A stretch of 64,000 nucleotides of DNA from Lampropedia puyangensis (lineage in GTDB: Bacteria; Pseudomonadota; Gammaproteobacteria; Burkholderiales; Burkholderiaceae_C), in assembly GCF_004833285.1 (NCBI RefSeq), contig NZ_STFG01000012.1, positions 1 through 64,000 on the forward strand. Direction: 5' to 3'. Every line of letters starts with the position of its first letter. Position 1 is the stretch's first letter. The notes under the pieces are model-generated. The model was given only the letters and a program-made list of their open reading frames with translations, had not been told where the DNA came from and did no database searches. Shown piece by piece: positions 52,510-53,893 of this stretch. A program made the translations under genes and the position numbers.

Positions 52510-52539
52510 TTGTTGATCATGATGCAATAAAGCTATACT
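52510..52539 (+). promoter_or_regulatory. Candidate sigma-70 promoter of asd
   Basis: TTGTTG (52510-52515) and TATACT (52534-52539) are 18 bp apart. Transcription would start near 52546, just before the leader open frame. Confidence 0.6.
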
Positions 52540-52549
52540 TGCGCCCGTT

Positions 52550-52666
52550 ATGCCAATGCTGCACTTCTTATCCATCCACGCAGGCGCTGCCCACAAAGCA
52601 GATGCTGGTGTGTTGGCGTGCGCCTGCATGTGCATCACCATCACTATTAAGACGATTAAGGGCTAA
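52550..52666 (+). CDS. Leader peptide of asd (candidate attenuation peptide)
   Basis: A 38-codon frame (ATG at 52550, alternatives at 52556 and 52628, stop TAA at 52664-52666) ends with codons for ITITIKTIKG: four Ile, three Thr and two Lys in ten. Such a run just before structures and a gene of the aspartate pathway is the hallmark of leader peptides like ThrL. Asd makes the precursor of Lys, Thr, Met and Ile, so the codons match the end products. The start is uncertain: no ribosome site is visible and the promoter would put the RNA start only about four bases before 52550. Confidence 0.6.
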   Translation: MPMLHFLSIHAGAAHKADAGVLACACMCITITIKTIKG

Positions 52667-52747
52667 CCAGCTCCGGATCGTCCTGCCCGCAAAAAAACCG
52701 GCCAGACGAGCCGGAGCAGAAAAGCCCTTTTTCTGCAACACTTTTTT
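52661..52747 (+). promoter_or_regulatory. Candidate transcription attenuator of asd
   Basis: Three competing structures are visible. (1) Anti-terminator: GGCT and GCTCCGG (52661-52676, overlapping the leader stop) pair with CCGGAGC and AGCC (52711-52726), 11 bp in two blocks. (2) A short hairpin CCGGC / GCCGG (52698-52714). (3) Terminator: GCAGAAAAG (52716-52724) pairs with CTTTTTCTGC (52727-52736), followed five bases later by TTTTTT (52742-52747). A ribosome stalled on Ile/Thr/Lys codons leaves arm 1 free and blocks the terminator; one at the stop codon masks it. Confidence 0.6.
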
Positions 52748-52765
52748 GTAAAGGCATTTCCCATC

Positions 52766-53893
52766 ATGGCAAAACTCACAGGACTGGTCGGTTGGCGCGG
52801 CATGGTCGGCTCGGTACTGATTGACCGCATGCAGGCTGAAGGTGATCTCGAGGTTATTGAGCCGGTGTTTTTTTCGACCTCCAATGCAGGAGGTCAAGCG
52901 CCTGCACAGGCCAAGAACGAAACAAAGCTGCAAGACGCATACGATATTGAAGCATTGAAAAAATGCGACATCATCGTGACGGCGCAAGGCGGTGATTACA
53001 CCAAGGCCGTGTACCCTAAGTTGCGTGCTGCGGGCTGGACTGGCCACTGGATTGATGCTGCATCTTCACTGCGCATGGACAAGGACTCGGTGATCATCCT
53101 CGATCCGGTCAATATGCCTGTGATCAAAAATGCGCTGGCCAATGGTGGCAACACCTGGGTGGGCGGCAACTGCACTGTCAGCTGCATGCTGATGGGCGTG
53201 GGCGCTTTGTACAAAGCCGGTCTGGTCGAGTGGATGAGCACCCAGACTTACCAAGCCGCTTCCGGCGGCGGCGCGCAGCACATGCGCGAGTTGCTGACCC
53301 AGTTTGGCTCTTTGAACGCGGAAGTGGCCGGCTTGTTGCAAGACCCGAAAAGCGCGATTTTGGAAATCGACCGCATGATCGTGGCTAAGCAGCGCGCTTT
53401 GAGCGCGGAAGAAACTGCTAACTTCCTGGTGCCGCTGGGTGGCTCCTTGATTCCTTGGATCGACTCCGATTTGGGCAATGGCGTTAGCCGCGAAGAGTGG
53501 AAAGGCATGGCCGAAACCAACAAAATCCTCGGTCAGGGCGAAGGCTTTGGCACGGCAGCGATTCCGGTTGATGGCTACTGCGTGCGCATTGGCGCAATGC
53601 GCTGCCACAGCCAGGCGTTGACTTTCAAGCTGAAGAAAAACGTGCCTCTGGATGAGATCGAAGGCATGATCGCCGCCGACAACCAGTGGGTCAAAGTGGT
53701 GCCCAACACCAAAGAAGCGACCATCCGTGATCTGACCCCTGTGGCCACGACCGGCACTTTGACCATCCCTGTGGGCCGTATCCGCAAACTGGCAATGGGC
53801 GATGATTATCTTGGTGCATTCACCATTGGCGACCAATTGCTGTGGGGCGCTGCAGAGCCGCTGCGCCGTATGCTGCGCATTCTGGTTGATTAA
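52766..53893 (+). CDS. asd: Aspartate-semialdehyde dehydrogenase
   Basis: The 375-residue product has [16 protein letters not shown] at the NADP site, the catalytic Cys136 in [31 protein letters not shown] and the active-site His in [15 protein letters not shown]. It reduces aspartyl phosphate to the semialdehyde, the branch point to Lys, Thr, Met and Ile and to diaminopimelate for the cell wall. Length is that of the gram-negative family. AAAGG lies 11 bases before the ATG. It has a 200-nt leader with a probable attenuator. In many betaproteobacteria asd follows leuB; here it is alone. Confidence 0.96.

Follow-up and report, generated by a model that had tools for sequence, protein, structure and literature searches.

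Aspartate-semialdehyde dehydrogenase, the product of asd, is the branch-point enzyme for the formation of lysine, threonine, methionine, isoleucine and cell-wall diaminopimelate. The thrL/thrABC attenuator of enterobacteria has Thr and Ile control codons in a short leader, and its output is an intrinsic terminator; we know of no amino-acid control codons in the rph-pyrE attenuator of Escherichia coli. Upstream of leuA in Actinobacteria, the LEU element combines a candidate leader peptide with a proposed capture of the Shine-Dalgarno (SD) sequence, as described in excerpts of PMC1262725. Polycysteine leaderless small open reading frames (sORFs) of mycobacteria (Canestrari 2020) are described in the excerpted text of PMC9031893 and cited in that of PMC13236596. 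The trpL transcript of Sinorhizobium meliloti begins at the ATG of the leader ORF (excerpts of PMC7298713), and in the rph-pyrE attenuator translation of the end of the upstream gene governs the next gene (excerpts of PMC2784333). Among the matches listed from the open full-text literature, which leaves most subscription journals outside, no asd leader or attenuator was described for Burkholderiales, nor did a LeuB tail appear in the role of a sensor; a term search of the main text of two comparative papers (PMC2965389, PMC4833913) found no mention of asd or leuB.

The window is the whole 64,000-nucleotide stretch of a Lampropedia puyangensis contig that was analysed. It contains asd on the plus strand at positions 52766 to 53893, identified by the TIGR01745 equivalog (577.9 bits, cut-off 402.9). 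The first-pass annotation, made from the sequence of the window, had proposed a leader-peptide attenuator with Thr, Ile and Lys codons in front of this gene, and the 38-codon frame ending in ITITIKTIKG on which the proposal was built is present on the same strand at 52550 to 52666 (MPMLHFLSIHAGAAHKADAGVLACACMCITITIKTIKG; ATG at 52550, TAA at 52664 to 52666). The C-terminal residues of this leader ORF are CITITIKTIKG, its tail is kept in relatives, and asd starts 99 nt 3' of its end. According to the translation, the control codons Ile-Thr-Ile-Thr-Ile-Lys-Thr-Ile-Lys(-Gly) occupy 52634 to 52663, and the match to pathway end products that had been pointed out is borne out, Thr, Ile and Lys all being products of the Asd pathway. 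Rfam gave no matches at the gathering score between 45000 and 60000 of the window. Between 51912 and 52766, asd is divergent to the neighbouring ORF, which we take to be rpsF, and does not adjoin leuB; the leader is retained.

The region between the leader and asd is a succession of short plus-strand segments. Segment 0 (GGGCT, 52660 to 52664) has a potential partner in the 5' half of arm 1 (GCTCCGG A TCGTC, 52670 to 52682), and is followed, after arm 1, by the anti-SD loop strand (TGCCCGCAAAAAA, 52684 to 52696), arm 2 (CCGGCC, 52698 to 52703) and arm 3 (GACGAGCCGGAGC, 52705 to 52717), for which arm 2 is the alternative partner. Hairpin 4 (GCAGAAAAgcccTTTTTCTGC, 52716 to 52736) is followed by AACAC, a T-run at 52742 to 52747 and then asd, so the hairpin and T-run previously noted just before asd are in place. 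The T-run together with the asd SD region (TTTTTTGTAAAGGCA, 52742 to 52756) is the partner of the anti-SD loop. None of 200 shuffles of the region from 52545 to 52770 folded as well as the native sequence (z = -4.67). An 11-bp pairing with one arm overlapping the leader stop had also been described, and it is ambiguous which of two helices was meant: the 7-pair helix of AAGGGCT (52658 to 52664) with AGCCCTT (52723 to 52729), found in the minimum free energy (MFE) fold of this region, does overlap the stop, whereas the 12-pair helix of arm 1 with arm 3 (GCTCCGG-A-TCGTC with GACGA-G-CCGGAGC) begins 3 nt after it and has 2 nt in common with hairpin 4. On the minus strand, 52698 to 52714 holds a terminator-like site pointing away from asd (CCGGCTCGTCTGGCCGG and then TTTTTTT), which is arm 2, arm 3 and the loop A-run on the opposite strand.

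A total of 130 asd loci were compared, comprising the window, 80 named loci, 9 further loci and, from the 222 asd hits of the order, 40 that were chosen near the top of the hit list and not randomly. A frame end rich in Thr, Ile and Lys was found near asd at 90 of these loci (68 standalone leaders and 22 fused to LeuB) and was lacking at 40, of which 33 were among the 40 order loci. Dereplication left 46 leaders, and the 42 used in the alignment and the swap test (L069, L097, L113 and L129 being omitted as too different) also served to build a covariance model, R1. This model gave one match per genome in 9 of 10 genus genomes and in 95 of 120 family genomes; across the order it matched 6 of 220 genomes, all six in the window's own family. 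Six of the 95 family matches were already in the earlier set, and the other 89 (80 + 9) were newly examined. Every one of the 89 precedes asd, with the leader stop 69 to 163 nt before it, and 48 are LeuB-fused and 41 standalone. Among the newer 80 leaders, 4 were more than 97 % and 10 more than 85 % identical to earlier loci. The stop had initially been chosen for its Thr/Ile/Lys-rich tail, and the stop placed by R1 agreed in 80/80, an agreement that covers these 80 loci and not the other 9, one of which (L242) has a weak tail with a score of 4.0 against the limit of 4.5 used for the 80.

R1 starts three codons 5' of the leader stop and so does not include residues -9 to -4. When R1 placed the stop, 423 of 480 residues at these positions (88 %) were Thr, Ile or Lys in the 80 genomes, as were 366 of 420 in the 70 leaders least like the earlier loci. 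In the 41 fused leaders the share was 85 %, and in the body of LeuB it was 16 %. The order of these residues varies, and the synonymous codons ACC, ACG, ATT, ATC, AAA and AAG are all used. What characterizes an attenuator at this level, a frame or frame end with codons for pathway products just before the regulated gene, is therefore found here. The codon run is conserved in the relatives, and since the element occurs in 95 of 120 family genomes, precedes asd in all matches newly examined and mostly follows Thr/Ile/Lys-rich tails, the designation as a leader-peptide attenuator of asd appears to hold, judging from the conserved codon run and the conserved alternative pairings described below.

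Three asd loci outside the window's family, L097 and L113 (family f32) and L129 (family f14), also have Thr/Ile/Lys-rich frame ends (ATTIKTITKTIP, TKTISLKTITLR and TTTIITKTVMKG, respectively, each directly before the stop) 80 to 90 nt 5' of asd. Their hairpins are built differently from those of the window's family, and they are possibly independent attenuators of asd.

Standalone leaders appear to have their own promoters placed very near the initiation codon. The likely promoter that had been annotated in the window is weaker than this wording suggests: a sigma-70 promoter scan gave no passing match at the window leader, and what can be pointed to is a -10-like hexamer, TATACT, on the plus strand at 52534 to 52539, 10 nt 5' of the leader ATG, which leaves room for a few untranslated bases and suggests a near-leaderless start. 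The same hexamer stands 10 to 11 nt 5' of the leader ATG in L001, L003 and L082 to L085. Across the standalone leaders, 101 of 107 have a -10-like hexamer (at least 5/6 match) 6 to 12 nt 5' of an in-frame ATG, most often 8 nt, as compared with 1.4 % of shuffled controls, a figure counted per ATG, of which 1.63 were tried per leader. When 13 nt were examined at either start, an SD-like sequence occurred before the leader ATG in 3 of these 101 and before the asd start in 94/107. The combination of a -10-like box close to the ATG with an SD that is rarely present, as in a leaderless regulatory ORF, predicts leaderless or near-leaderless translation, and the standalone leaders are probably read as leaderless or nearly leaderless mRNA.

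In the fused form, the leader stop codon is the stop codon of leuB. The upstream ORFs of the fused loci L017 and L074 were identified as LeuB with 494.9 and 486.8 bits, respectively, against a TIGR00169 cut-off of 353.2, and in fused LeuB proteins the usual end MGDAVVKAL gives way to tails such as MGDAVVAALITKTITKS or MGDAVVAALSSSTTKTTIKG. The leuB gene of the window genome lies on another contig and has the normal end MGNAVVAAL without a tail (L225). A quick asd tree of 90 rows, with SH-aLRT as its only support measure and 33 of 84 inner branches open, required 8 changes of the fused label by parsimony, at least 3 of them forced by well-supported branches. In L004, L040, L048, L071, L076, L077 and L079 a LeuB-like ORF precedes asd and has neither the Thr/Ile/Lys tail nor the leader; these are apparent losses. 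On balance we favour the view that there is one attenuator with two interchangeable readers, namely either a leaderless mini-gene transcribed from a promoter of its own or the tail at the C-terminus of full-length LeuB. If this is true, every ribosome finishing LeuB tests the supply of Thr, Ile and Lys before the asd start, and a biosynthetic enzyme bears a tail shaped by sensing and not by catalysis.

RNAalifold yielded next to nothing when given a free alignment, so the pairings were evaluated by partner swaps, in which RNAduplex energies of native partners were compared with those of permuted partners in the 42 leaders. Native partners were better for arm 1 with arm 3 (-19.5 versus -18.4 cross), arm 2 with arm 3 (-13.5 versus -12.6) and the anti-SD loop with the SD region (-12.0 versus -10.2), with 0 of 2000 permutations reaching the native mean in each case. 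The control pairs gave 543/2000 (arm 1 with SD), 145/2000 (loop with the stretch after arm 3) and 1972/2000 (arm 1 with arm 2); relatedness is not removed by swap tests and may inflate them, and the controls share the same relatedness. Within the window genus, where 8 of 11 leaders were used and the near-copies L087, L088 and L089 omitted, the loop:SD pairing had -12.6 native against -8.3 kcal/mol cross, and 2 of 40320 permutations reached the native mean, the native one included. The two strands visibly change in step, being GCAAAAAA and UUUUUUGU in the window, GCAAAAAU and AUUUUUGU in L082, CUUCA and UGAAG in L085, and UCUUUCAA and UUGAAAGA in L003. The same pairing gave 0/5000 in 67 newer leaders no more than 85 % identical to earlier ones, which are what dereplication left of the 70 newer leaders least like the earlier loci; fused leaders alone gave 5/5000, standalone leaders alone 34/5000, and the control with the SD segment read backwards 386/5000.

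The alignment columns gave more modest results. For arm 1 with arm 3, 86 % of cells were paired, with 7 two-sided changes (3 of 500 shuffles as high) and a covariation score reached by 121/500 shuffles; for arm 2 with arm 3, 94 % were paired and the covariation score was reached by 7/500. Of 42 rows, 40 were predicted to form a hairpin of segment 0 with arm 1 and two, L034 and L067, to fold otherwise; the swap tests for this hairpin were weak (284/5000 and 863/5000). The AAGGGCT:AGCCCTT pairing was strong in the window alone, at -11.5 kcal/mol; L082 had -6.1, and six more leaders of the genus -4.6 or weaker. Over the 42 leaders 117 of 5000 permutations matched the native value, a slight advantage, and it was rejected as a conserved pairing. 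There are nevertheless three competing pairings that beat their swaps, so that mutually exclusive structures are each backed by relatives, with modest column counts, and one of them is a helix that takes the SD, as in a translational attenuator.

The distance from the leader stop to the conserved TCGTC, and with it the position of a ribosome at that stop, is near-constant, at a median of 11 nt (5th to 95th percentile 9.85 to 13; 78 of 80 leaders contain the motif), while the asd ATG lies 76 to 112 nt from the stop (5th to 95th percentile). In the OFF-state MFE, 70 of 80 leaders have at least three pairs between the SD region and the loop. Long-range pairing of the SD was predicted in 39/46 real leaders versus 104/230 with shuffled upstream sequence, and in 64/80 versus 169/400, which in these models is a moderate excess over the controls. 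The asd start codon has at least two of its three bases paired in 16/46 and 37/80 leaders, and in L026, L045, L062, L125, L155 and L166 the predicted silent fold has the arm 1 TCGTC paired to the start-codon region, so that the start codon would be covered as well as the SD.

Folding under assumed ribosome positions gave a divided result. An earlier two-state test had shown no difference, with on exceeding off in 43/90; the three-state test, which used another ribosome edge and measure, was post hoc, following the two-state result and segment 0, and 80 of its leaders came later. In the 39 newer standalone leaders, the probability of long-range pairing of the SD was 0.53 with the ribosome at the stop, 0.18 with it stalled over segment 0 and arm 1 free, and 0.30 when it covered neither of the two (p about 1e-8 between stop and stalled), and in the 46 earlier representatives it was 0.45, 0.23 and, with both free, 0.32. 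It was unchanged across the three states in the 41 newer fused leaders (0.36, 0.36, 0.39). The probability that the SD is unpaired differed little, being, in the same order, 0.43/0.46/0.41 in the representatives (n = 46), 0.34/0.49/0.40 in standalone and 0.49/0.45/0.44 in fused leaders. For the window, long-range pairing was 0.35, 0.16 and 0.00, and the unpaired probability 0.64, 0.18 and 0.65; the stalled state goes the wrong way, and induction of asd in the window is therefore not predicted from folding alone. As modelled, equilibrium folding supports a switch for standalone leaders and not for fused ones, and is ambiguous for the window.

The likely explanation is a ribosome-mediated attenuator through which asd responds to charged Thr and Ile (perhaps Lys) tRNA, mainly via translation initiation; ribosomes stalled on the Thr/Ile/Lys-rich stretch probably switch asd on during a shortage of these amino acids. 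We infer the direction of regulation, the leaderless initiation, the translational output and the sensing itself from the arrangement of the parts, as follows. When amino acids are plentiful, the ribosome would reach the leader stop and cover the 5' half of arm 1, leaving TCGTC; with arm 1 blocked, arm 3 would pair with arm 2, and the anti-SD loop would pair with the asd SD region and in some relatives also take the asd start codon, so that asd is kept silent. Under a shortage of Thr or Ile, the ribosome would stall on the control codons and cover segment 0, whereupon the free arm 1 would take arm 3, arm 2 would hold the loop, and the SD would be released. An untranslated leader may fold with segment 0 on arm 1, giving a silent state by default. 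In fused genomes, ribosomes finishing LeuB would do the sensing. A ribosome stalled on the Lys codons, which lie close to the stop, might also cover arm 1, and Lys may therefore be a weaker or opposite signal. A pseudoknot in which arm1:arm3 and loop:SD form together, which would silence asd in starvation, was set aside for that direction.

The first-pass annotation had taken hairpin 4 and the T-run for a terminator, and a thr-type transcription attenuator with that output and with arm1:arm3 or AAGGGCT:AGCCCTT as antiterminator would have all its parts in the window, the latter pairing being strong there; terminator-like sites, a hairpin followed by a T-run, moreover occur in 6 of the 46 dereplicated leaders, the window included, against 0.6 expected from shuffles. 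We nevertheless hold this to be unlikely, because 40/46 leaders are without such a site and a conserved intrinsic terminator of the thr or trp type is therefore not found, the window stem has 3 G-C among 9 pairs with 5 nt between it and the T-run, hairpin 4 and arm1:arm3 overlap so little, and AAGGGCT:AGCCCTT is weak in six of seven genus relatives tested. Several fused leaders also have little space for a hairpin and T-run. The T-run itself is the strand that pairs with the loop A-run, and the two change in step among relatives, an indication that the asd SD is sequestered; with terminators rare and the T-run engaged in loop:SD, SD sequestration is favoured, and the terminator may be a local addition. 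A combination that overlaps with the preferred explanation, in which SD sequestration is family-wide and a terminator or Rho-dependent loss is added in some lineages, the window's included, is possible but doubtful: both anatomies stand together in the window, and untranslated mRNA 3' of a silent start is generally Rho-sensitive, but the terminator is little conserved.

The absence of a switch from the equilibrium folding of the fused class, and the short distance from stop to start, would suit a passive translational coupling, in which the leader or LeuB tail merely brings ribosomes to the asd start and its codons serve a non-sensing role. Such coupling is distinctly improbable given that Thr, Ile and Lys, all of them products of the Asd pathway, make up 85 to 88 % of residues -9 to -4 while their order and synonymous codons vary. 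That the element is a matter of chance or an annotation artefact has nothing more to recommend it than that short ORFs are common, and its likelihood is negligible beside matches in 95/120 genomes and the position of 89/89 newly examined matches before asd.

Stall-dependent control of asd translation, as preferred here, extends what had been noted for the window in that the element is family-wide, the leader looks leaderless, and in about half of the family genomes examined a LeuB tail takes its place. It is this enzyme-tail form that a specialist would find surprising, the LeuB tail being a candidate natural case of the end of a working enzyme doubling as a regulatory sensor, and the family offers dozens of fused and unfused relatives for studying the origin of such sensors. 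The asd leader is like thrL/thrABC in its Thr and Ile codons, in the predicted choice between exclusive RNA pairings by a stalled ribosome and in its aspartate-family pathway, and differs in preceding asd and not the thr operon, the intrinsic terminator output being that of thrL. With the LEU element it shares a candidate leader peptide and a biosynthetic gene whose SD is engaged by a pairing; in LEU, as excerpts of PMC1262725 describe it, the partner of the SD is the run of Leu codons itself and a pseudoknot has been put forward, and both the amino acid and the phylum are others. The polycysteine sORFs, according to the excerpted text of PMC9031893, are likewise leaderless regulatory ORFs in which codon-dependent ribosome speed attenuates downstream translation, but they sense cysteine and belong to another phylum. 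The trpL attenuator of S. meliloti, also proteobacterial, has its transcript start at the leader ATG, comparable to the leaderless start predicted here, but responds to Trp by transcription attenuation (excerpts of PMC7298713). While rph-pyrE is tied to pyrimidine (uracil) levels and attenuates before pyrE transcription, it is there, as in the LeuB-fused form, that the end of a real upstream gene controls the next gene (excerpts of PMC2784333).
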